64,000 nt of DNA, from contig NZ_FOZK01000002.1 of the NCBI RefSeq assembly GCF_900114435.1, positions 682,001-746,000 of the forward strand, in the 5' to 3' direction. Every line of letters begins with the position of its first letter. The stretch's first letter is position 1. The notes beneath the pieces were generated by a model, which saw only the letters and a program-made list of their open reading frames with translations, did no database searches and was not told the origin of the DNA. The DNA comes from Halomicrobium zhouii. Lineage in GTDB: Archaea; Halobacteriota; Halobacteria; Halobacteriales; Haloarculaceae. The translations under genes were made by a program, and so were the position numbers. Positions 42,946 to 63,922 of the stretch are shown here, piece by piece.

Positions 42946-43920
42946 ATGCCAGAGAACGACACCCTCAGAACGGTCGGCACGGAACGCGGGTTCGACGTCG
43001 GTGCGGCGGTGAGCGCCGCGCCGCTCCGGAGCGACCCCGGCTACAAGAAGACACTCCGGCGGGAGTTCAACACCATCACCGCCGAGAACGCGCTGAAGAT
43101 GGGGCCGCTGCGGCCGTCGCGACACACCTACGACTTCCACGACGCCGACGCAGTCGTCGACTTTGGCCGGGCCAACGACATGCGGGTCAGGGCGCACACG
43201 CTCGTCTGGCACAACCAGACACCCGAGTGGTTCCAGGAGTGGGACTACACGGACGACCAGCTCGAGGCGTTCCTGCGGGACCACGTCCACACCGTCGCGG
43301 GCCGGTACCGGGACAAAGTCGACACCTGGGACGTGGTCAACGAGGCCGTCGCCGACGACGGGTCGATGCGCGAGACGGTGTGGTACGACGCGATGGGCGA
43401 GGAGTACCTGGACAAAGCGTTCCAGTGGGCCAGCGAAGTCACCGACGCCGACCTGTTCTACAACGACTACGGCGCCGACGGGATCAACGAGAAGTCCGAC
43501 GCCATCTACGATCTCCTGGAGCGGTTGTTGGACCGGGGCGTCCCCATCGACGGCGTCGGCCTCCAGATGCACGCCCTCCACGAGAAACCCGACCCCGAAT
43601 CCGTGGCCGAGAACATCCGCCGCTTTCAGGACCTGGGGCTGGACGTCGAGATAACGGAGATGGACGTCGCGTACCTCCCCGAGGACGACCCCGGCGACGA
43701 GGCCGCGCGCCACGAGTTACAGGCCGAGTTCTACCGCGACGTCGTCGAGGCCTGCCTGGAGACCGGCTGTGACACCGTCGTCGTCTGGGGCGTCCGCGAC
43801 TCGGACTCGTGGATCCCGACGTGGTTCGACGAACTCACGGACGACCCGCTGCTGTTCGACGCCGGCAACGACCCGAAACCCGCCTACGACGCGGTCAAAG
43901 AGGCGCTCGCGAGCGACTGA
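42946..43920 (+). CDS. Endo-1,4-beta-xylanase, GH10, without signal peptide
   Basis: 324 residues covering a complete GH10 TIM barrel. The acid/base is E133 in WDVVNEA and the nucleophile E238 in EITEMDV. Also present are HTLVWHNQTPEWF and the late VVVWGVRDSDSW (aromatic subsite). The N-terminus (MPENDTLRTVGTERGFDVGA) has no export signal, so it should act on xylo-oligosaccharides imported into the cell. It is followed by a convergent sugar dehydrogenase. Confidence 0.93.
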   Translation: MPENDTLRTVGTERGFDVGAAVSAAPLRSDPGYKKTLRREFNTITAENALKMGPLRPSRHTYDFHDADAVVDFGRANDMRVRAHTLVWHNQTPEWFQEWDYTDDQLEAFLRDHVHTVAGRYRDKVDTWDVVNEAVADDGSMRETVWYDAMGEEYLDKAFQWASEVTDADLFYNDYGADGINEKSDAIYDLLERLLDRGVPIDGVGLQMHALHEKPDPESVAENIRRFQDLGLDVEITEMDVAYLPEDDPGDEAARHELQAEFYRDVVEACLETGCDTVVVWGVRDSDSWIPTWFDELTDDPLLFDAGNDPKPAYDAVKEALASD

Positions 43921-43956
43921 AGCGCGCTCGTCGACTGCGACTGGCGCGCGTCTCGA

Positions 43957-45024
43957 CTACAGGTCGACCCGACGGCCCTCGTCGCTGGATTCGTAGACGG
44001 CCTCCGCCACGCGCAGGTCGAGGAGGCCGTGCTCGCCGTCCGGGCCGATGTCGCGCTCGCCCAGGACGGCCGTCGCGAAGAAGTCGAACTCCTCGACCAT
44101 CTCCGGGGGTTCGGCCACGTCGACCGTCGTCTCGCCGTGGTCGCGCGCGATGGTGATCTGTCGGTCGGCGTCGACGTCGAACACCGGGTCGACGGTGATG
44201 CGCCCTTCGGTCCCGACGATGGTCATGTGGTTCGCGCCGCTCGCGCCGTAACTGGCGCTACACTGCGCCGTGACGTCGTCGGGGAACGCCAGCGTGAAGG
44301 CGACGTGCTCGTCGACGCCGTCGAACGCGGGCGGGTTCTCGATGGCCGTCGCGTGAACCGCCACCGGGTCGGCGTCGAGGACGAACCGCGCGGTGTTCAG
44401 CGGGTAGACGCCGACGTCCATCAGCGCGCCGCCACCGGCCAGGTCCGGGTCGAGTCGCCACTGGTCCGGGTCGCCGCCGCCGGCGAGCATGTTGAAGGAG
44501 AACTCGCCGGTGAACTGGACGGGGTCACCGATCACGCCCGCCCGGACCTGCTCGCGGACCCACCGGACGGACCGCGTCGTCTGCATCCGGTAGGCCGTCA
44601 TCAGCTGGACGCCGGCCTCCTCGCAGACCTCGACGACGCGTTCGGCGCGCTCGCCAGTCGCCTCCAGGGGTTTCTCGCAGAGGACGTCCTTGCCGAGACT
44701 CGCTGCCGTCTCCACGTGCGGGAGGTGGAGTGCGTTCGGCGTGACGACGTAGACGGCGTCGTACGCCTCGGCGTGCTCCCCGTCGGCGTACTCCTCGTAG
44801 GTGAGCGCGGCGTCGAGTCCGCGTTCCTCGGCCACCGACGAGGCCTTTTCGGCGGATCCGCTGACGACTGCCGTCGCTTCACAGTACTCGGAGTCTTCGA
44901 TGGCCGGGAGGGCGACGTCTCGGCCGAACCAGCCGAGCCCGACGACGGCGAACCGGACAGGTCCGCCGTCGACGGCTCGCTCCCAGTCTCGTTCGGCGAA
45001 TCGCGTCGGGATTTCCAGATTCAT
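43957..45024 (-). CDS. gfo6: D-xylose 1-dehydrogenase-type Gfo/Idh/MocA oxidoreductase
   Basis: 355 residues from the ATG at 45024. The Rossmann motif FAVVGLGWFGRDVALPAI, the KDVLCEKPLEA catalytic Lys and the GGALMDVGVYPLNTARFVL signature define the family. The N-terminal MNLEIPTRFAERDWE is, as I recall it, typical of the haloarchaeal D-xylose dehydrogenases (first step of oxidative pentose degradation to xylonolactone with NADP). A different aldose substrate cannot be excluded. Its position next to xylanase supports the call. Confidence 0.8.
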   Translation of the reverse strand: MNLEIPTRFAERDWERAVDGGPVRFAVVGLGWFGRDVALPAIEDSEYCEATAVVSGSAEKASSVAEERGLDAALTYEEYADGEHAEAYDAVYVVTPNALHLPHVETAASLGKDVLCEKPLEATGERAERVVEVCEEAGVQLMTAYRMQTTRSVRWVREQVRAGVIGDPVQFTGEFSFNMLAGGGDPDQWRLDPDLAGGGALMDVGVYPLNTARFVLDADPVAVHATAIENPPAFDGVDEHVAFTLAFPDDVTAQCSASYGASGANHMTIVGTEGRITVDPVFDVDADRQITIARDHGETTVDVAEPPEMVEEFDFFATAVLGERDIGPDGEHGLLDLRVAEAVYESSDEGRRVDL

Positions 45025-45734
45025 GCACGGTCCTTTACCGTCCTCCCTCAAATAGGGCGCTGATACGGCGGCTAGCCTCGCGCTCGGCCCGGAGACGAAC
45101 TGTCGTGGAACGACAGTGAAGCGATCCGGGACTCGCAGACCTTACTGATCTTTCCTGACGATCGCTGTTCTCCGTTCCAGAATCTAATTCTCTATGCCTG
45201 GGAAAACCGTGGTATTCCACCGCATGATATGTTCAGTAAAGCGGAACGACGCCGTGGGACTGACGATATGGACAGCGCCCGGCGACGCTGGAACGGTGAG
45301 TCAGGCCCTCAGACGCCGATCGCTGGTCGGCGACCGGATCGCGCTCACAATAACGCCCTTAGGCCCGTTATCCCGATGGCCCTGACTGTCGGCTCATCTT
45401 TCAGATGGATAGATCGTGATACTCAATCTGTGATATCTGGAAGCTATTCACAATTACCGGGTTATACGCCCTCGTGGCGGAATTTCTCCGCGGTCTCCGG
45501 CGCCGAATCTCGGTAGAGAAATTTGGAGTGAGTGCTGGCCGTCGTTCTGCAAAACAGAACGCGAGTCTAGTAGGATGTTGTGCTGTTCTACCTGTTCTCG
45601 AATCCGTTCTCGTTGGTGGAATATCGAAGGAGAGACGACGCCCCTTCGTGGCCACCGACTGGCGGTGCGCGTCGACCGGGCCGTCCGCGACGGCGACCAC
45701 AGCTATTTACGCTCCCGGTCGCCATCGACTGGAC
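45025..45734. other. Intergenic region between the xylose dehydrogenase and GH4 genes
   Basis: 710 bp without a convincing gene; GC is reduced at 45130-45560. It must contain the promoter of the minus-strand dehydrogenase and that of the GH4 gene. A perfect 8-bp inverted repeat, AATTTCTC (45481-45488) with GAGAAATT (45516-45523), could be an operator. Confidence 0.45.
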
Positions 45735-47192
45735 GTGACAATCGAGTCTTTCGACGCGGACGGCGTGCTGGACGGTGACGACCTCACGATCGCGTACGTC
45801 GGGGGCGGAAGCCGGCAGTGGGCCCCCAACCTGATACGGGACCTGGCGCTCTCCGAGTTCGACGGACACGTTCGGCTGTACGACACGAACGAAGAGAGCG
45901 CCCAGCTCAACGCGGAGTTCGGGAACTGGGTCCAGCAAGACGACGACGCCACCGCCGACTGGAGCTACGAGGCAGTCGGCTCGCTTGAGACGGCACTTGC
46001 CGGCGCCGACGTCGTGATCCTCTCGACCCAGTACGACCCCACGGAGACGTTCGTCCACGACCTGTCCATTCCCAGGGAGTACGGCATCTACGGGGCCGTG
46101 TCGGCGACGATCGGTCCGGGCGGCATCTTCCGGGCGATGCGGACCATTCCGGTGTATCGACGGTTCGCGGCCGCGGTCCGCGAGCACTGCCCCGACGCCT
46201 GGGTGTTCAACTACACCAACCCGGTTCACTTCGTCACGCGCGCGTTGTACGACGAGTACCCCGACATCAACGCGCTCGGGCTCTGCCACGAGGTGCTCGG
46301 GACGCGCTGGCACCTCGCCATGCTCGCCCGGGAGGAACTCGGGATGGACGCCGAGCGCGCCGACGTCGACGTGAACGTCAAGGGGATCAACCACTTCACG
46401 TGGATCGACGAGGCTCGCTGCAAGGGCGTCGACCTCTGGCCGCTGCTCGAAGAACTGAAAGACGGCGAGCGCGGGAACCAGCGGTTCACCTGGGAGGACC
46501 TGGCCGACGAGAGTGTGTTCACCGACAACTGGCAGGTCACCTGGGAGCTGTTCCGCCGGTTCGGCGTCCTGCCCGCCGCCGGCGACCGCCACATCGTCGA
46601 GTACGCCACGTCGTTCATCCAGGGCGGCCAGGAGACGCTCAACCGCTGGGGCGTCAAGCGCACCGGTGCCGACTACCGGGCGAAACACTGGACGCCGGCC
46701 GAGTCCGACCAGACCACGGACGTCGAGGCCTGGCTGGAGGGCGAGAAGGAGTTCGAACTCGAGCCCTCCGGCGAGGAGTTCCTCGACATCCTGGGGGGGC
46801 TCACCGGCGACGGCCCGTACGTCACGAACGTCAACCTGCCCAACACCGGCCAGATCTCGGATATCGAGCAGGGTCCGGTCGTCGAGACGAACGCCGTCGT
46901 CCGCGCGGGCCAGGTCAAGCCAGTCGCCGCTGGCGGCTTCCCGCGACCGGTCCGGAGTCTGATCCAGGGCCACGTCGACACCATCGAGACGATCATCGAG
47001 GCCGCACGGGACGGGGACGTCGACAGGGCGTTCGAGGGCTTCTCGATCGACTCCCAGGTCCAGACGCTGACGCCAGACGAGTCGCGTGACCTGTTCGGCG
47101 AACTCGTCGCCGCCGAGGTCGACTACCTGGCGGACTGGCACCTCGAGGAGTCGGACGTGCTCGCCGGGGCCGAGACGTACCCCGGGGCCTGA
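45735..47192 (+). CDS. GH4 glycosidase (alpha-galacturonidase/alpha-glucuronidase-like)
   Basis: 485 residues from the GTG at 45735; a longer frame upstream is not protein-like. GH4 enzymes work by an NAD- and Mn-dependent redox mechanism. Visible are the NAD loop AYVGGGSRQW, the metal-site Asn in VFNYTNPVH, and the metal-binding Cys and His of GLCHEVLG. KGINHFTWI holds the metal His. The HWxPAESDQTTD and the uronate-type architecture suggest an alpha-galacturonidase or alpha-glucuronidase, which would debranch glucuronoxylan or pectin oligomers in the cytoplasm. No export signal is present. Confidence 0.85.
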   Translation: MTIESFDADGVLDGDDLTIAYVGGGSRQWAPNLIRDLALSEFDGHVRLYDTNEESAQLNAEFGNWVQQDDDATADWSYEAVGSLETALAGADVVILSTQYDPTETFVHDLSIPREYGIYGAVSATIGPGGIFRAMRTIPVYRRFAAAVREHCPDAWVFNYTNPVHFVTRALYDEYPDINALGLCHEVLGTRWHLAMLAREELGMDAERADVDVNVKGINHFTWIDEARCKGVDLWPLLEELKDGERGNQRFTWEDLADESVFTDNWQVTWELFRRFGVLPAAGDRHIVEYATSFIQGGQETLNRWGVKRTGADYRAKHWTPAESDQTTDVEAWLEGEKEFELEPSGEEFLDILGGLTGDGPYVTNVNLPNTGQISDIEQGPVVETNAVVRAGQVKPVAAGGFPRPVRSLIQGHVDTIETIIEAARDGDVDRAFEGFSIDSQVQTLTPDESRDLFGELVAAEVDYLADWHLEESDVLAGAETYPGA

Positions 47193-47296
47193 CTCGCGGG
47201 TGGGCCGACCTGACTCGCGGGTGGGCCGACCTGACTCGCGGGTGGGCTGACCTGACTCGCGGGAAGGCAGGACCTGATTCGCGGGAAGGCAGGACC
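47188..47296. repeat. Five tandem 21-22-bp repeats at the end of the GH4 gene
   Basis: Units start CCTGACTCGCGGG. Three carry GTGGGCCGA or GTGGGCTGA and two carry AAGGCAGGA. The first unit contains the GH4 stop codon (TGA at 47190-47192), so the array forms the start of the 3' UTR. It lies between GH4 and the exported GH10. Confidence 0.85.
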
Positions 47297-47450
47297 TGAA
47301 ATCTCAATCCGATCGGCCGCGAGACGGCCGCCGACATCCCCCTTCGATAATCGCCAACACGACCCTCGATCGTGCAATTTTCTCCGCATCCATGCTGCAA
47401 TTATCCAGTACATATTTGGCGTGCTAATAGAAAGAACGGGTGAACCACAG

Positions 47451-49577
47451 ATGACAAACGAACGCGCGGACATCGGCAGCGACCGACGGACGTTCATCGG
47501 TTCGCTCGCGGCGCTGGGCGCACTCGGCGCCCTGCCGGGAGCGGCAAGGGTGGGCGCTGCACAGGAAGACGACTCGATCGACGACTACTATCAGACGCTT
47601 CGACAGATCCTCACTCAGTTCCGGGGCCTCCCCGAGGGTGAGTTCGTCTACGAACCGGACGAGCAGGCGACCATCGAGACCTTCGACAACGTCGGCCCAG
47701 GGGGGAGCAGTTCGTCGTCGTTCACCGTGGACGACGTGAACGTTCCCTTCACGCAGGCCGAACGCGTCGAGATCAACGAGGACCCGGAGAACAACTGGAC
47801 GTACTCCTACCAGGGGATCATCCCCGACGGCCAGTTCGAGGCCGGCGACGTACTTCTGGGCGTAGCTCACGTCCGGAGTGGGAGCAGCGACGCTCAGATA
47901 CAGGCCGGGTTCAAGTACCGCTACGAGAACTCCAGCGGCGAGACGGCCTACGGGGACGAGAACTTCGTCGCCGAAGGGGCGATGGTCGAGCCGACCGGGT
48001 CCTGGGAACGGTACTACTTCCCCATCGAGGTCGGCGAGAAACCCGACGGGTCGAACCACGAGCCGTACATGGAGTTCTGGACCGGTTTCGCACAACAGAA
48101 TCTCGACTTCGGTGGGCTCGCGCTCATCGACTACAGTGCCACGGACGTCGCCGTCGGCGACCTTCCCGTCGGCCGGCACTCGCACCCCATCTTCGACTAC
48201 GACGGCCGGTCCGAGGGTGCCACGTGGCGCGAAGACGCGTACGCGCGTATCGAGGAACTCCGGAAGGCGTCGCTGGACGTCTCCGTCGTCGACGCCGACG
48301 GCAACCCGCTCCCCGGGGCGAGCGTCGACGTCGCGATGCAGGAACACGAGTTCGACTTCGGCAGCGCCGTCTCCGTCGAGCACATCACCGGTGACGCCGA
48401 CGACGACGATGTGTACCGCGCTCGGTTCCTGGAGAACTTCAACAAGGCCGTCGTCGAGAACGGGATGAAGTGGCCGGCCTGGAGCGGTGACTGGGACATC
48501 GACAAGGAGGCCACCAGACAGACCGTCCAGTGGCTCAACGACCAGGAGATTCCGACGCGCGGGCACTACCTGGTGTGGGAGGAGTACGGCGGCGCCAACG
48601 GTGGCGGGATGGCCGTCAGCGAGGACCGTTCGGACGGCGAACTGCAGGAGGAGATCCTCGACAAGATCGAGAGCCACACCGCCGAGTTCGAGGGGCAGGT
48701 CACCGACTGGGACATGCACAACCACCCCATGTGGCAGAGCAACATCCGTGACCGCCTCGGCTGGGACGCGGCTCTCGAGTGGTGGTCGACCGCCGCAGAG
48801 GCGACGGACGCCGGCCTCTACACCAACGAGATGGGCAACGTCGCGGGTGACTTCCTCCGCGACGAGCACTACGAGTTCGTCCAGCGCCTGGTCGACGAGG
48901 GCGCACCCGTCGACGGCGTCGGCTTCATGGGCCACGTCCAGTTCTCCAACGGCAACGTGACCCCGCCCAAGGAGATGCTCTCGACGTTCGACCAGTTCGG
49001 GGAGCTGGATCTGCCGATCCTCATCACGGAGTTCGACATCCAGATCGACAGTCGCGACAACCAGCGACAGGTCGACTGGCAGGCGGATTACCTCAGGGAC
49101 TTCTTGATCGCCTGCTTCAGCCACGATGCCGTCGAGGGCCTCGTGAACTGGGGCTTCTGGGCCGGTGACCACTGGCGACCGACCGGCGCCCTCTTCGACT
49201 CGAACTGGGGGCTTCGACCGCACGGGGAGCAGTTCATGAACCTGGTCTTCGACGAGTGGTGGACCGAGGACAGCGGCGAGACGAACGACGAGGGGACGTA
49301 CTCCTCGTGGGCCTTCAGGGGCGAGTACGAGGTCACCGCGAGCTACGAGGGCGAGGACGCCTCGACGACGGCGACGCTCTCGGACGGCGGGACCACTGTC
49401 GAACTGACGCTCGACGCCGCGCAGTCGACGGCAACGGACGAGGGCGAGTCGGACGAGGGGACGGAGACGGAGTCGACGTCGGCTGTCGGTCCCGGTCTGG
49501 GCGTCGGCTCGGCGGTGGCGGGCGCCGGTGCGCTCGCGGGCTACAAGCTGACTCGCGACGACGACGACGACGCGTAG
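47451..49577 (+). CDS. Tat-exported GH10-domain protein with acid/base Glu replaced by His, PGF-CTERM-like tail
   Basis: 708 residues. Tat signal SDRRTFIGSL; an in-frame upstream GTG at 47421 is the alternative start. The first 250 residues resemble a carbohydrate-binding beta-sandwich (ERYYFPIEVGEKPDGSNHEP, FAQQNLDFGG). The GH10 barrel follows (FDFGSAVSVEHI, VENGMKWPAW, RGHYLVWEEYGG, VGFMGHVQF, nucleophile E527 in LITEFDI). Where active enzymes have WDVVNE, this protein reads WDMHNHP, with H425 in place of the acid/base Glu. The end is AVGPGLGVGSAVAGAGALAG plus basic/acidic tail, a PGF-CTERM variant. It may bind xylan without fast hydrolysis, or use another proton donor. Confidence 0.85.
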   Translation: MTNERADIGSDRRTFIGSLAALGALGALPGAARVGAAQEDDSIDDYYQTLRQILTQFRGLPEGEFVYEPDEQATIETFDNVGPGGSSSSSFTVDDVNVPFTQAERVEINEDPENNWTYSYQGIIPDGQFEAGDVLLGVAHVRSGSSDAQIQAGFKYRYENSSGETAYGDENFVAEGAMVEPTGSWERYYFPIEVGEKPDGSNHEPYMEFWTGFAQQNLDFGGLALIDYSATDVAVGDLPVGRHSHPIFDYDGRSEGATWREDAYARIEELRKASLDVSVVDADGNPLPGASVDVAMQEHEFDFGSAVSVEHITGDADDDDVYRARFLENFNKAVVENGMKWPAWSGDWDIDKEATRQTVQWLNDQEIPTRGHYLVWEEYGGANGGGMAVSEDRSDGELQEEILDKIESHTAEFEGQVTDWDMHNHPMWQSNIRDRLGWDAALEWWSTAAEATDAGLYTNEMGNVAGDFLRDEHYEFVQRLVDEGAPVDGVGFMGHVQFSNGNVTPPKEMLSTFDQFGELDLPILITEFDIQIDSRDNQRQVDWQADYLRDFLIACFSHDAVEGLVNWGFWAGDHWRPTGALFDSNWGLRPHGEQFMNLVFDEWWTEDSGETNDEGTYSSWAFRGEYEVTASYEGEDASTTATLSDGGTTVELTLDAAQSTATDEGESDEGTETESTSAVGPGLGVGSAVAGAGALAGYKLTRDDDDDA

Positions 49578-50448: not shown

Positions 50449-52587
50449 ATGCGGGATACTGACAATAACCGCGAGAAGTTGTCGCGACGACGGTACGCGC
50501 AACTGGTAGCTGGATCGAGTGCGGCAGCACTGGCCGGCTGCCCGGAGTCGGGGTCCGAGGGAACCGAGACCGAACCCTCGACGAGCGAGTCCGACACCGA
50601 CGAGTCGACGACCAGTGACGGGGACTCGACGCCGGATCCGAGCAACCGGATGACCGACACCGTTCGGGTGTTCACCCTGAACACGCCGGACACGTTCGAC
50701 TGGAACCCTCACACGCCCCAGGACAACTCCACTGGCGACCTCTTCATGTCCGAACTGCACGGCATGTCGAACTCCCACGATACGTCCAAGCGGCTCCACG
50801 GCGACGACGCGACGTTCGACGCGCCGTGGGTCCAGGGGCAAGACGAGATCAGCCTCGTCACCTGGATCAAAGACTGGGACGTCGAACCGCCCTACGACCT
50901 GTGGAACACCCACGACGACCGCTCCACGTTCTGGAACGGCGAGCCCAACGACGCCGACACCCGGTACAAGTACGACAAGGTGCGCTACTTCGTCGAGGGC
51001 AACAAGTTCCAGGAGGGCCAGATCCACCGTGCCGAGGCCGAGAGCCAGTGGCGCTACCACTTCTGGCACGCGAGAGCGGAGGTCGAGGGCGCAGACGACG
51101 ACCCGGCGAACGAACCGCTGCTGGCCGACGAGGCGGCGGCGACCGACGGCGACGTGCCGCTCCCGCAGGAGTGGAGCGACCCGTGGCTGCGAGAGTTCGA
51201 CGCCGCCGGGACCCAGGAGCGGTACAACGAGGTCATCAGCAACGTCCGCGGCGACCGCGTCTCGCTGGAACGGCTCGCCGAGAACGGCTGGGGGACGGGT
51301 CCGTACGAACTCCGCTCGACCGACGACATCGGCTCGGACCGGGCCATCCTCCGGATCCGCGACGAGGACGCGGAGTCGCCCCATCCCCACCGCGAGCACA
51401 TCAACATCCCGAAGCTCCAGCTCCAGTTCGGTAACGAGGACCGTGAGCAGACGCTGGCGAACAACGGCGCCATCGACGTCCACGCGGGCTCGATCACGCC
51501 CAACAACACGTGGAACCCGGAGAGCCTCCCGGACCACGTCGACAACATCACCACCTACCTGCGCCCGAACGGCGGGGACTCGTGGTGGTTCAACTGGAAC
51601 AACCCGCACCTCGGGCGCCTGTGGGTCCGACGGGCGCTCGTCACGGCCATCGACTGGAACACCGTGGGCGCGAACGGCTGGGGCGACCAGCGCTCCGTCC
51701 CGCTCGAACACGACACCGGGATGCTCGACGCTCACTCCGAGTCGACGTTCTCGGAGGAGTTCCTGAACAGCCTCCACTCCTGGCCGAAGGGGCCCGACGT
51801 CGAGACCGCCAACGAGTACATGAAGCGGGCGGGCTACACGAAGAACGGCAACATCTGGGTCGACCCCGACGGGAACGACTTCCAGCTCGACGTCCTCATC
51901 ACCTCGAACATCGAGGACTGGATCGGCGCCGGCCAGACCATCCGCCAGGAGCTCAGGAACTTCGGCGTCGACGCGACGTTCACCCAGCAGGACTGGGGGA
52001 CGTGGTCGAACAACCTGGACACGTTCAACAACGAGGGGCCGAACTTCGACACCTCGATCCACTGGTACAACCAGCCGACCCGCTTCGGCTACTACAAGTC
52101 CCAGGCCGCGTGGTGGGACAACGCGTCGCTGCTGGGCGGTGACCCCAACGGCACGGGCTCGGACCGCCGCGCCGTCGACCCGGGCGACGAGTTCACCATC
52201 AAGGGCGAAGTCGTGCAGGCCCACCTGCCGACCGACGCGGGCTCCATCGAGGCCCCCGACCAGGCCGGTCAGCAGCCGGACCTCGAGGGCGTCACCGACT
52301 ACGAGGAGGTGGATATGGCCCAGGTGGTCGAGGACATCCGCAGGCCCACCGACTCCGAGGAGGAACTCCAGAATCTCTTCCGGACCTGCGCCCGTTACTA
52401 CAACTACTACCTGCCGAAGTTCGCGTTCCACCAGTACACCTACGGCGAGTGGGCGAACGTCCGCGACTTCGACTGGCCCGGTGAGGACGACGACGCCCTG
52501 GACTGGGAGCGCAGCTTCAACATCACGGACACCGTGACCCTGGGCGGCATCGCCCAGGCCAGCTACGACGAGGAGATGGACCGCTGA
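50449..52587 (+). CDS. Family-5 solute-binding lipoprotein, large
   Basis: 712 residues. A twin-arginine signal (KLSRRRYAQLVAGSSAAAL) with lipobox ALAGC (C31) and an acidic Ser/Thr stalk. The PF00496 domain is divergent: FDWNPHTPQDN, ENGWGTGPYELRSTDD, NWNNPHLGRLWVRRALV and EYMKRAGYTKNGNIWVD follow its order. Many Trp/Tyr/Asn residues suggest a carbohydrate ligand. It stands between the GH10 genes and a transporter operon of the same type at 60.7 kb, which may import the oligosaccharide it binds. TATA box TTTATATAA at 50419-50427, 22 bp before the ATG. Confidence 0.85.
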   Translation: MRDTDNNREKLSRRRYAQLVAGSSAAALAGCPESGSEGTETEPSTSESDTDESTTSDGDSTPDPSNRMTDTVRVFTLNTPDTFDWNPHTPQDNSTGDLFMSELHGMSNSHDTSKRLHGDDATFDAPWVQGQDEISLVTWIKDWDVEPPYDLWNTHDDRSTFWNGEPNDADTRYKYDKVRYFVEGNKFQEGQIHRAEAESQWRYHFWHARAEVEGADDDPANEPLLADEAAATDGDVPLPQEWSDPWLREFDAAGTQERYNEVISNVRGDRVSLERLAENGWGTGPYELRSTDDIGSDRAILRIRDEDAESPHPHREHINIPKLQLQFGNEDREQTLANNGAIDVHAGSITPNNTWNPESLPDHVDNITTYLRPNGGDSWWFNWNNPHLGRLWVRRALVTAIDWNTVGANGWGDQRSVPLEHDTGMLDAHSESTFSEEFLNSLHSWPKGPDVETANEYMKRAGYTKNGNIWVDPDGNDFQLDVLITSNIEDWIGAGQTIRQELRNFGVDATFTQQDWGTWSNNLDTFNNEGPNFDTSIHWYNQPTRFGYYKSQAAWWDNASLLGGDPNGTGSDRRAVDPGDEFTIKGEVVQAHLPTDAGSIEAPDQAGQQPDLEGVTDYEEVDMAQVVEDIRRPTDSEEELQNLFRTCARYYNYYLPKFAFHQYTYGEWANVRDFDWPGEDDDALDWERSFNITDTVTLGGIAQASYDEEMDR

Positions 52588-52703: not shown

Positions 52704-54488
52704 TTAGCCGTCTCCCGGCCGGACGAGCCCGTGCTTTATCGCGTGGATAGCCGACTGGTTCTCCGGGCCCGCGGTCCGGTAGGCGTCCTCGTCACCGACC
52801 CACTCGAAGTCGCGCGTGTTCCCCCACGTCCCGCTGACGCTCGTCGCGACGTGGATATCTGGCAGGGCGTGGTTCCACCATCGGGCGAACGTGCCCACTG
52901 CGTCGGCCGTCGTCTCGCGGTCGGACTGGCCGCCGAGCCGGTGCCAGAGGTCGACGAGGTTCACCGTCCGCTCGCCGTCGCCGTCCGCCGCCGGAATCGT
53001 GACTTCGACCGGTTTGCCGTGGGCCGACGTCTCGGTCGCCGGGTCGGTGACGCCGTAGCCGAGTGCGGTCGCCCCCGTCGCGGTGACGTCGTAGAGCGTG
53101 TGGGGGCTCCCGTCGCTGGGCCACAGCAACACGTCGAAGTTGTGCGTGTCGACGTCGGTGACCAGCCGCGGAGCCGGGATCTGCGAGAAGTCGACGTCGA
53201 ACCCGAACTCGGTCAGCGCCTGGTCGACGAGTTCGCCGCTGGCCTTCCACTCGGGCCACATGGGCGTGCGGAGGCGGAACCAGACCGACTCGCCGTCGGG
53301 GTCGTACCAGTCGCCGTCCTCGCGCGTGTACCCCGCCGAGCGCATGTACTCCGCCGCGCGCTCGGTTTCGGCCTCGACTGGATACTCGCGGAGGTCGGCC
53401 AGCACGTCCTCGTCGAGCCAGCGCCGTTCCGCTGGCGTCGCCATCCCCGTCTGTCGCGTCGTCGCCTCGCCGAACCCGCCCACGTCGACGACGTCGTCGA
53501 GCGGGAGGGCCGCGAGCAACGCGCGCCGGACCGCCAGCCGACCGAGGTGGGCGTTCCGCCAGTCGAGGGCGAGTTTCGTCCCGCCGGTCGTCGGGTACCG
53601 GGCGATCTGGTCGACGTTGTCCGCGGGCGACCCCTTCAGCCCCGTCAGCAGGCCGCTGCCGCCGTCGAGCGTTCCCTGCTGGACGAACTTGTCGAGGGAC
53701 ACCGACTGGACGACGGGGAACCACAGCGTCGGAATCGAGACGTCGTCGGCCCGGGGGTGGTCCTCGAAGCGTTCGAGCATCAGCCGGTTCATCGACGCCT
53801 CCACGAGCTCGTAGGGCCCACAGCCGACCCCCTTCTCCGCCGCGTCCTCGAGCGAGACGCGCCACTCGTGGAGCTCCGAGACGACGTCCTCGCGGGCCGC
53901 CGCCGTCGACGCACCGTCCAGACGGTCGGCCCACTGTTCGAACAGCCAGGCCGGCGTGTTGACGGCGCCGCCGACGACGTGGGACAGGACCAGGGGTTCG
54001 GCGAGTGCGCGGTCGAACCCGTAGACGAGGGTGTGCTCGTCGCGCAGCGTCACCGCCGGCCGGTCCTCGTCGCTCACGGCCGACTGGATCCGCTCGTACA
54101 CCCACTGGTCCCGCGCCGTCACGGGCTCGCCGTTCCACCAGGAGAACTCGTCGCTGTAGGTGACCGTCGCGGTCGCCCCGTCGATGGCGACGTCCTCGAC
54201 GACGTCGCCCAGTCGACGCTCCCCGCCGGGTCGCTGGACGGACTGGACCTCGAACAGCATCGTGTAGAAGTGCCAGGGGTACGAGCCCGACAGCCACGGG
54301 TTGAGCTGGACGCTCTCGGTGGCGTAGGGGAAGGCGTGGCCGAACACGTCCGAGGCGTGTCTGATGTCGTCCGGGTCGGCCGAGCAACCCGCGAGGCCGC
54401 CCAGGGCGAGCGCGCCGGCGCTCGCCAGGACCTGCCGTCGCGTCGTCGCCCCCGAACCGGATCCGTCGCGTCCGCGGCCGTCTCTCAT
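52704..54488 (-). CDS. Family-5 solute-binding lipoprotein, second
   Basis: 594 residues. Tat signal TTRRQVLASAGAL with lipobox GLAGC (C35). It shares with the 50449 protein the early NPWLSGSYPW and FSWWNGEP segments, GVGCGPYELVEAS, DWRNAHLGRLAVRRALLAAL, and AEYMRSAGYTREDGDWYDPD. They are thus paralogues with different pocket loops. It is convergent with the first. Separate ligands for two related proteins seem likely (for example oligosaccharides of different branching). Confidence 0.85.
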   Translation of the reverse strand: MRDGRGRDGSGSGATTRRQVLASAGALALGGLAGCSADPDDIRHASDVFGHAFPYATESVQLNPWLSGSYPWHFYTMLFEVQSVQRPGGERRLGDVVEDVAIDGATATVTYSDEFSWWNGEPVTARDQWVYERIQSAVSDEDRPAVTLRDEHTLVYGFDRALAEPLVLSHVVGGAVNTPAWLFEQWADRLDGASTAAAREDVVSELHEWRVSLEDAAEKGVGCGPYELVEASMNRLMLERFEDHPRADDVSIPTLWFPVVQSVSLDKFVQQGTLDGGSGLLTGLKGSPADNVDQIARYPTTGGTKLALDWRNAHLGRLAVRRALLAALPLDDVVDVGGFGEATTRQTGMATPAERRWLDEDVLADLREYPVEAETERAAEYMRSAGYTREDGDWYDPDGESVWFRLRTPMWPEWKASGELVDQALTEFGFDVDFSQIPAPRLVTDVDTHNFDVLLWPSDGSPHTLYDVTATGATALGYGVTDPATETSAHGKPVEVTIPAADGDGERTVNLVDLWHRLGGQSDRETTADAVGTFARWWNHALPDIHVATSVSGTWGNTRDFEWVGDEDAYRTAGPENQSAIHAIKHGLVRPGDG

Positions 54489-60755: not shown

Positions 60756-61775
60756 ATGCGATACTATGTCAGACGCATAGCGCAGTCAGTGTTTACCCTG
60801 TTGTCGGGACTGTTCCTGACGTACGCCCTCTATCGCCTCATCCCGGGGAGTCCGCTGAAGGCGATCATGGCCGACCTCATCGCCCAGCAGCAACGCAGGG
60901 GCGAGGTGGACACCGAACAGGTCGCGAGGATGGCGGAGCAGATGACGGGGATCAACCCGGACGAACCGATCATCGTCGGCTTCTTCAACTACGTCAGCGG
61001 GATCGTCCTGCGCGGGGACTTCGGGACCTCGATCATCTACCAGGACCCGGTGTTCGACATCCTCTTCCGGGCGATGCCGTGGTCCATCTTCCTCAGCGTC
61101 TACGGCATCATGCTGGGGTTCACGGCGAGCGTCCTCGTCGGCGTGTTGATGGCCTGGCACGAGGGCTCGAAGCTCGACTCCGGGCTGACGGTCCTCGTCC
61201 TCTCGGTGAACGCCATCCCGTACTACGTCGGCGCGATCGTCTTCCTCTCCGTCCTGGCGTTCCAGTGGGGACTGTTCCCGACCGGTGGCCGGGCGCCGCG
61301 GGCCGTCGAGCCGGGATTCAGCCTCCAGTTCATGCTGGGGATACTCCATCACGGGGCCTTACCCATCCTGTCGACCTTCCTCCTCGGGTTCGGCGCGGGT
61401 TCACTCGGGATGCGGGCCAACACCGTCCGCATCGTCGGCTCGGACTACCTCCGGTCGGCGCGCCTGCGGGGGGTGAGCACCAACCGCATCCTCACCCGGT
61501 ACCTGACCCGGAACGCGATACTGCCGCTGTACACGGGTCTGGTGGTCGGTATCGGTGCGCTGTTCGCCTCGAACGTGATCACCGAACAGATATTCCAGTA
61601 CCAGGGAGCCGGCTGGTTCCTGTTCGAGTCCGCGACGAAGCAGGACTACCCGCTGGTGATGGGGTCGTTCCTCTTCTTCGGAACGGTGACGGTGACCGGC
61701 ATCCTGATCGCCGACCTCACCTACGGTCTCATCGACCCGCGCGCTGAATCCGGTTCGACGAGGGATACCTTCTAA
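60756..61775 (+). CDS. Oligopeptide-type ABC transporter permease (DppB/OppB family)
   Basis: 339 residues from the ATG at 60756. The N-terminus MRYYVRRIAQSVFTLLSGLF and RLIPGSP are OppB-like, the permease has six helices, and the EAA loop reads RANTVRIVGSDYLRSARLRG. It pairs with the permease that starts 1 bp after its stop. Substrate may be peptide or oligosaccharide; many haloarchaeal systems of this class sit beside glycosidases. Confidence 0.9.
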   Translation: MRYYVRRIAQSVFTLLSGLFLTYALYRLIPGSPLKAIMADLIAQQQRRGEVDTEQVARMAEQMTGINPDEPIIVGFFNYVSGIVLRGDFGTSIIYQDPVFDILFRAMPWSIFLSVYGIMLGFTASVLVGVLMAWHEGSKLDSGLTVLVLSVNAIPYYVGAIVFLSVLAFQWGLFPTGGRAPRAVEPGFSLQFMLGILHHGALPILSTFLLGFGAGSLGMRANTVRIVGSDYLRSARLRGVSTNRILTRYLTRNAILPLYTGLVVGIGALFASNVITEQIFQYQGAGWFLFESATKQDYPLVMGSFLFFGTVTVTGILIADLTYGLIDPRAESGSTRDTF

Positions 61776-61776
61776 C

Positions 61777-62793
61777 ATGTCACGAGACGACCTCGAGACG
61801 GACGGCGGCGTCACGCAGGAGAGCATCTTCGGGACCGGCGACGACGAGCGGCGTAGCCGGTCCTCGCCGAAGGAGCGCTTCGGCAGGGGGTTCGACTCCT
61901 ACGTGCGAACGCCCTTCCGGATCGCCTGGAACGACTGGCGGACGCGCATCGGCGGCATCGGCATCCTGATCTACCTCCTGATGGGCACGGTCGGCGTCCT
62001 CCTCGTGCCGGAGCCGACGCTCAACGAGGGGCCACGCTACCTCCAGCCGTTCCAGGACTGGACGATCCCGTTCGGCACCGACAACCTCGGTCGCGGCATC
62101 TTCAAACAGCTCATCCACTCGACGCCCGCGATGCTGAAGATGGCCCTGGCCGGTCTCGTCTTCGCCGTCGGCGTCGCGATCCTCTTCGGGATGATCGCCG
62201 GCTACAAGGGCGGCGTCCTCGACACCGTGCTGATGACCATCACGGACATCTTCTTCGTGCTCCCGGGACTCCCGCTGATCATCGTCCTGTCGGCCATCTT
62301 CACGCCGCGGGACCCCTTCATCGTCGGCGCCATCCTCTCTATCTCCGTCTGGCCCAGGCTCGCCAGGGAGTTACGCTCGCAGGTCCTCTCGTTACGGACG
62401 GAGGACTACGTCGAGGCCTCGCGCTCGATGGGGCTGTCGACGCCGACCATCATCGGCCAGGAACTCATGCCGAAGCTGGCCCCCTACATCCTCATCCGCG
62501 GGTCGGGCTCCGCGGTGCGGATCATCAGGGACTCCGTGGCGCTGTACTTCCTGGGCATCCTGCCGTTCAGCACGACCAACTGGGGCGTGATGATGCAGTT
62601 CGCCTACAGCACGGGGAACGCCATCTCGACGCCGAGCCACCTCTACTGGCTGGTCGTCCCCCTCGTCGCGCTGGCGGGGATGGGCTTTTCGCTGATCCTG
62701 TTCTCGCAGGGCCTCGACCGGGTGTTCAACCCGCGACTCCGGGCCCGGAACACGGAACACGGTGCCGACGAAGACGGGACGGGGGTGATGTGA
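61777..62793 (+). CDS. Oligopeptide-type ABC transporter permease (DppC/OppC family)
   Basis: 338 residues. An acidic N-terminal extension precedes the OppC features: PFGTDNLGRGIFKQLIHSTP, the periplasmic loop, LRTEDYVEASRSMGLSTPTI (EAA motif) and a C-terminal helix. Transcribed with the genes on both sides with 1-bp spacers. Confidence 0.92.
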   Translation: MSRDDLETDGGVTQESIFGTGDDERRSRSSPKERFGRGFDSYVRTPFRIAWNDWRTRIGGIGILIYLLMGTVGVLLVPEPTLNEGPRYLQPFQDWTIPFGTDNLGRGIFKQLIHSTPAMLKMALAGLVFAVGVAILFGMIAGYKGGVLDTVLMTITDIFFVLPGLPLIIVLSAIFTPRDPFIVGAILSISVWPRLARELRSQVLSLRTEDYVEASRSMGLSTPTIIGQELMPKLAPYILIRGSGSAVRIIRDSVALYFLGILPFSTTNWGVMMQFAYSTGNAISTPSHLYWLVVPLVALAGMGFSLILFSQGLDRVFNPRLRARNTEHGADEDGTGVM

Positions 62794-62794
62794 G

Positions 62795-63922
62795 ATGGCG
62801 ATAGACCAGTCGGGAACGACCGGCACGCCCGACGCAGACGAGGACGAACCGGAAGATATCGTCATGTCGGTCCGCGACGCGCGGGTGTCCTTTGACATGG
62901 CCCGCGGGCAGGCGTGGGTGCTCAACGACGTCGACCTCGACGTCCGGCGCAACGAGATTCTCGCCGTCGTCGGCGAGTCCGGGTCGGGCAAGTCGATGTT
63001 CGCCTCGGCGCTGCTGGACGCCGTCGAGGACCCGGGACGGCTAGCCGGCGACGTCACCTACTACCCGGACGAGGCGGCCGGGGAGAGCCAGACCATCGGC
63101 TCGTTCGACGAGGGACTCGACGACTCCGTGGACGTGCTGGACCTGGACCCGGACGAACTGCAGGCGTTCCGGTGGGAGAAGGTCTCGATGGTGTTCCAGG
63201 GGGCGATGAACTCGTTCAACCCCACGATGAAGATCAAGGCCCACTTCCACGAGACCATCCAGGCCCACAACGCGGTCCTCGAAGAGCGGATGGACCACGT
63301 CCGGAAGCTCTTCGACGCGCTGTACATCGACTTCGACCGCGTGATGACGTCCTATCCACACGAGCTCTCCGGCGGGATCAAACAGCGGACGCTCATCGCG
63401 CTGGCGCTGGTGCTGGAACCCGAGGTGCTCGTGATGGACGAGCCGACCGCCGCGCTGGATCTTTTGATGCAGCGCTCTATCATCTCGATGCTGCGGAACC
63501 TCCGCGACGAGTTCGACCTCACCATCGTGTTCATCACCCACGACCTGCCGCTGGTCGGCGGCCTCGCGGACCGCATCGCCGTGATGTACGCCTTCGAGTT
63601 CGTGGAGGTCGGTGCGACGCGGGATCTCATGAAGAACGCCGCCCATCCCTACACCCGCTCGCTGTTACGGTCGGTGCCGAGCATCACCTCGGACGTCGAC
63701 GAGATGGAACCGATCGAGGGGGCGCGGCCGGACCCGGTCAACATCCCGACCGGCTGTTCGTTCCACCCGCGCTGTCCCGTCGCCGACGACCGCTGTGAGA
63801 TCGAGGACCCGGACCTGGCCGCCGTCGAGGACGACCTCCAGGCGGCGTGTTTCTACACCGACCAGGCGCGCGAACAGATCGACTACACGCTGGAAGACGA
63901 ATCCACGGGGGACGACAGATGA
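62795..63922 (+). CDS. Oligopeptide-type ABC transporter ATP-binding protein (DppD/OppD family)
   Basis: 375 residues. Walker A GESGSGKSMF (around 59-68), an insert of about 30 acidic residues (FDEGLDDSVDVLDLDPDEL), Q-loop MVFQGAMNSFNP, signature LSGGIKQRTLI, Walker B VLVMDEPTAALDLL and switch His ITHD. The C-terminal oligopeptide-type Cys cluster CSFHPRCPVADDRC would hold a [4Fe-4S] or metal site. The gene overlaps the next by 4 bp. Confidence 0.93.
   Translation: MAIDQSGTTGTPDADEDEPEDIVMSVRDARVSFDMARGQAWVLNDVDLDVRRNEILAVVGESGSGKSMFASALLDAVEDPGRLAGDVTYYPDEAAGESQTIGSFDEGLDDSVDVLDLDPDELQAFRWEKVSMVFQGAMNSFNPTMKIKAHFHETIQAHNAVLEERMDHVRKLFDALYIDFDRVMTSYPHELSGGIKQRTLIALALVLEPEVLVMDEPTAALDLLMQRSIISMLRNLRDEFDLTIVFITHDLPLVGGLADRIAVMYAFEFVEVGATRDLMKNAAHPYTRSLLRSVPSITSDVDEMEPIEGARPDPVNIPTGCSFHPRCPVADDRCEIEDPDLAAVEDDLQAACFYTDQAREQIDYTLEDESTGDDR

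Follow-up and report, generated by a model that had tools for sequence, protein, structure and literature searches.

A haloarchaeal GH10 protein with histidine at the acid/base position belongs to a conserved clade found in archaea and bacteria

GH10 is a retaining glycosidase family in which a β7 Glu attacks and a β4 Glu serves as acid and then as base. P0002, an exported 708-aa GH10 protein encoded at 47451–49577 (plus strand) of the 64,000-nucleotide stretch of Halomicrobium zhouii DNA analyzed here (the window), carries His425 at this acid/base position. Among 94 non-redundant GH10 domains compared residue by residue (41 His-type and 53 Glu-type), His occupies the position in 41, each time within an N-H-P motif and alongside a retained nucleophile, β6 His, and β7 Asp. 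The conserved clade that the original prediction had proposed to look for by alignment thus exists. Because the His substitution is fixed in a related group common to haloarchaea and bacteria, P0002 looks like a maintained enzyme variant.

The window lies in a 4.25-Mb haloarchaeal genome and includes a second GH10 gene, P0001 (42946–43920, plus strand). This encodes an intracellular xylanase of 324 aa that matches PF00331 (E=1.5e-100), with canonical WDVVNE (Glu133) and ITEMD (Glu238) motifs and no signal peptide, as had been predicted. The two GH10 genes are non-adjacent, with a D-xylose 1-dehydrogenase gene, Gfo6 (43957–45024, minus strand; NF041392, 462.8 bits against a cut-off of 350), and a GH4 glycosidase gene of the uronidase type (45747–47192, plus strand; PF02056/PF11975) in between. 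The GH4 start codon is provisional, the frame being open from 45474. The best solved relative of its product is the LplD α-galacturonidase 3fef (2.7e-90), its NCBIfam scores fall under the cut-offs, and it may be a glucuronoxylan α-glucuronidase. Farther along the window, a long protein encoded at 50449–52587 is exported, bears a lipoprotein-like signal, and matches nothing in Pfam or NCBIfam. It adjoins a family 5 solute-binding protein (52704–54488), and a dipeptide-type ABC transporter lies in the same region (60756–63922). These three probably form an oligosaccharide uptake system.

P0002 starts at ATG 47451, in agreement with the residue numbers H425 and E527, and its predicted structure has a pLDDT of 91.5. 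A twin-arginine signal region (RRTFIGSLAALGALGALPGAARVGA; 47451–47558, plus strand), recognized by eye from the motif SDRRTFIG, is followed by an N-terminal β-sandwich with a CBM4/CBM22-like fold (47559–48197, plus strand; pLDDT 89.4). Foldseek matches the modeled sandwich to xylanase CBM4-2 and CBM22 (prob 1.00, TMt 0.57–0.68); a Pfam search of this domain returned no match. The GH10 (β/α)8 barrel covers residues 298–588 (48342–49214, plus strand), as delimited by the PF00331 match. An acidic tail and hydrophobic C-terminus (49350–49577, plus strand) weakly match the C-terminal end of TIGR04281 (E=0.018), possibly representing a PGF-CTERM-like anchor. In the Glu-type GH10 paralogues L037, L036, and L055, the P0002-type N-terminal sandwich is tandemly repeated, in two or three copies.

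PF00331 is the sole glycosidase family found in P0002 (113.2 bits, curated cut-off 22.1; E=1.9e-32), which places the protein outside GH3, GH117, and GH156. The best fold match of the model is the GH10 xylanase 7d88 (TMt 0.88), also the closest solved relative, and WDMHNHP of P0002 aligns with WDVNNE of 7d88. This alignment puts His425 (codon 48723–48725, plus strand) at the acid/base Glu position, while ITEFD retains the nucleophile Glu527 (codon 49029–49031, plus strand; 41/41 His proteins). The original prediction, which had called the Tat signal, the β-sandwich, the nucleophile, and the replacement of Glu by His, is borne out on each of these points. P0002 has the family profile, the β7 nucleophile Glu, the -2 subsite E-N-x-x-K, the β6 His, and the β4 Asn of GH10, and lacks the acid/base Glu on β4 (N-E), where His425 stands. 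The name "xylanase" is therefore unearned; public annotation labels His-type proteins as endo-1,4-beta-xylanase.

The H. zhouii genome contains eight GH10 genes, three with WDMHNHP and five with Glu. About ten close relatives were recovered from 194 Halobacteria genomes, all with WDMHNHP, and an orthologue of P0002 in "Halobacteria archaeon HArc-gm2" is 94% identical. The strain HArc-gm2 is described as a Halomicrobium close to H. zhouii, with xylan and arabinoxylan as growth substrates (PMC9726719). A wider scan of one genome per species (84,980 species) added Natrinema, Saliphagus, Halosimplex, Halocatena, Halobacterium, Halobonum, and Halomarina, as well as a Salinarchaeum MAG and a Lentisphaeria MAG. 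Searching with a DNA pattern for W-D-x-x-N-H-P located the motif in a GH10 context in 17 of 391 Halobacteria genomes, in 10 of 388 genomes from the phylum of the Lentisphaeria MAG, and in 3 of 299 from that of an Oscillospiraceae MAG. The reversed-pattern control gave a handful of matches per search, and the recurrence of NHP in GH10 is more than chance. All His proteins scanned against Pfam scored above the GH10 cut-off, and the His form spans haloarchaea, Verrucomicrobiota/Lentisphaeria, and a few other bacteria. The literature searched yielded no paper on a natural Glu-to-His substitution at the GH10 acid/base position; the natural variant appears to be new, the family and laboratory E→H mutants being known.

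Residues invariant in the His group comprise Trp420, Asp421, Asn424, His425, Pro426, Asn459, Glu460, His495, Glu527, Asp529, and Asp550. Glu336-Asn337-x-x-Lys340 is nearly so, with Lys340 present in every row having a letter there. This invariance of catalytic-site residues indicates that the site is constrained with His in place. At the end of β5, Glu460 (codon 48828–48830, plus strand) is found in 41/41 His proteins, whereas Asp occupies the position in 42/53 Glu-type proteins. Glu also occurs there in 10 Glu-type proteins, so Glu460 is not specific to the His form and was rejected as its mark. Met493 (codon 48927–48929, plus strand) replaces the canonical β6 Gln in 34/41 His proteins and 0/53 Glu proteins; strict coupling of His to this change is ruled out by seven bacterial His proteins that retain Gln. 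Among Glu-type proteins, L047 and L055 have Glu in place of the β6 Gln (GMECHF), and the very divergent Opitutae GH10 protein L059 combines WDSYNE with His at the β5 position (VLNHYK).

Three orthologue pairs gave dN/dS values of 0.20, 0.15, and 0.16, which indicate purifying selection. The values of 0.15–0.20, the three paralogues, and the orthologues in many genera rule out sequencing error or lone decay. The original prediction had allowed for the true acid/base Glu lying elsewhere in the loop; no acid is conserved in residues 426–442 (β4-α4 loop) of the His clade, which eliminates such a misalignment. Its suggestion that His reflects adaptation to salt or pH found no support, and salt adaptation was rejected, given the five Glu-type paralogues in the same genome and the presence of the His form in several bacterial groups.

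Gene neighborhoods of His-type genes include GH67 in 5/16 cases and GH4 in 7/16. In haloarchaea, glucuronoxylan-type neighbors comprise GH4, GH67 α-glucuronidase, GH11, intracellular GH10, and Gfo6, accompanied by dipeptide-type ABC transporters, IclR regulators, glucuronate isomerase, and mannonate dehydratase. One H. zhouii paralogue (C1:981k; L153, G000:C1:975000-992000; WDMHNHPIW) is directly preceded by GH67 and followed by GH11, GH11, and a Glu-type GH10, and a Halorussus His-type gene has uxaC and mannonate dehydratase alongside. These contexts point to haloarchaeal His-type genes often residing in glucuronoxylan loci. The C1:981k region makes up a compact xylan cluster within the P0002 genome. 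The third paralogue (C2:944k) and the bacterial members lie outside xylan loci. In three Verrucomicrobiota genomes (L148, L155, and L156), mreB adjoins the His-type GH10 gene, and HMM searches of the L155 neighborhood also identified mreC and a PBP2-like transpeptidase gene. The Verrucomicrobiota proteins may act in the cell envelope and not in xylan use.

On a GH10 tree built without the trait columns, a single change suffices for the Glu/His trait. The sequences fit a single origin of the His proteins; two origins are possible, as the node joining the two His groups is weakly supported (47). The haloarchaeal and bacterial His proteins adjoin each other, an arrangement suggestive of gene transfer between the two domains.

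We infer, with somewhat less than even confidence, that P0002 functions as a retaining enzyme with His425 as acid/base, maybe paired with Glu460, on decorated xylan. As an exported enzyme equipped with a CBM, it would represent a distinct His subfamily of GH10 in which the retaining machinery is kept and Glu527 attacks the anomeric carbon. The His495/Asp529 network around the nucleophile is unchanged, as are the xylose-holding residues of the -1/-2 subsites (Glu336, Asn337, Lys340, His372, Trp376, and Asn424). His425, in the place of Glu, would protonate the leaving group and then activate the acceptor. Its tuning probably comes from Glu460, invariant where the following strand ends, much as in the His/Asp dyads of other glycosidases; conservation suggests this pairing. 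In haloarchaea, the most likely role of P0002 is to cleave or transfer chains of glucuronoxylan at the cell surface, and uronidases, the intracellular GH10, and xylose dehydrogenase would complete the breakdown inside the cell. Laboratory E→H mutants are slow enough for intermediates to be crystallized, and His alone may therefore not give useful turnover.

Ranked second, and in our judgment unlikely, is a non-hydrolytic surface receptor or trap for xylan, in which the barrel, lacking the acid/base Glu, would still bind tightly and might form a long-lived covalent glycosyl-enzyme through Glu527. Kuno et al. 1999, listed in PMC10905567, reports in its title significantly enhanced pNP-xylobioside binding for an E128H GH10 mutant, and mutants of the E→H type trap intermediates. 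The N-terminal domain of P0002 is CBM-like, and the five Glu-type GH10 genes and GH11 enzymes of the genome can supply hydrolysis. However, a mere binder should not retain the nucleophile, the His/Asp network, and the specific His-Pro in 41/41 proteins across phyla, nor does it account well for three paralogues each under purifying selection. Among the options named in the original prediction (a xylan-binding receptor, a transglycosylase, or an enzyme with a different mechanism), the otherwise complete set of catalytic residues favors an enzyme.

It is quite improbable that the acid/base function has moved to Glu460, with His425 only binding substrate or tuning pKa. Glu460 is one of few invariant acids at C-terminal strand ends besides Glu527/Asp529 and Asp421, at a position held by Asp in most Glu-type proteins, yet in 10 proteins Glu here co-occurs with an intact acid/base Glu and so exists without a donor role. 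Moreover, it follows Asn459, whose position in GH10 directs its side chain into the active site, so that the Glu460 side chain may point away. Decidedly improbable is a transferase or phosphorylase in which His favors a non-water acceptor (sugar or phosphate), as argued for GH3 NagZ-type enzymes. A title cited in PMC11574756 (Macdonald et al. 2015) connects phosphorylase activity in GH3 N-acetylglucosaminidases with their His acid/base, but P0002 is exported into surroundings that are poor in phosphate and do not retain products, and no phosphate site was identified in it. A hydrolase dispensing with a strong acid, through a good leaving group or a substrate-borne acid such as a uronate carboxylate beside the scissile bond, would suit the glucuronoxylan gene context but is speculative and highly improbable, as bacterial members lie outside such loci.

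A further reading, less likely than not, is that a natural GH10 subfamily across domains exchanged the universal acid/base Glu for His-Pro and a Glu partner and gained new chemistry, with His driving the transfer or cleavage of uronate-decorated xylan or of a Verrucomicrobiota envelope glycan. In GH10 the Glu/Glu pair is taken as invariable, and the His change escapes annotation pipelines; xylanase counts for haloarchaeal genomes include proteins whose activity is only predicted. The natural clade supplies many proteins in which to ask if a His acid/base can sustain a retaining clan-A glycosidase, and it makes the laboratory mutant an evolutionary outcome.

Among known systems, XynA of the Bacillus sp. 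KW1 / B. safensis type (PDB 7d88, 7d89) is the best sequence and structure match, sharing with P0002 the GH10 fold and extra N- and C-terminal elements; it differs in having its own acid/base Glu182, with Asp at the β5 and Gln at the β6 positions. The haloarchaeal Glu-type GH10 paralogues (WEVHNE, WDVVNE) share genomes and domain order with P0002, and some share its N-terminal module, but they keep the acid/base Glu and form a separate tree branch. Glycosidases of GH117, GH3 NagZ, and GH156 use a His general acid with an Asp partner, as computed or proposed (PMC11574756). They resemble the arrangement proposed for P0002 in that a carboxylate would tune the His, and differ in belonging to other families, in their Asp partner, and in being exo-acting.

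The Streptomyces olivaceoviridis E-86 mutants E128H and N127S/E128H (PDB 2D20, 2D22, 2D24, 5gqd) have His at the same GH10 acid/base position as P0002. Crystals of Xyn10A N127S/E128H captured Michaelis complexes and a covalent intermediate (PMC5811086 Table 1), and 5gqd is the covalent intermediate of T82A/N127S/E128H. A GH10 barrel with His can therefore bind substrate and become glycosylated, though slowly enough for trapping. Unlike P0002, these proteins are laboratory-made and place His in an Asp/Gln environment in contrast to Glu460/Met493; Asn127 is also altered in the crystallized forms, whereas the P0002 clade retains Asn424.
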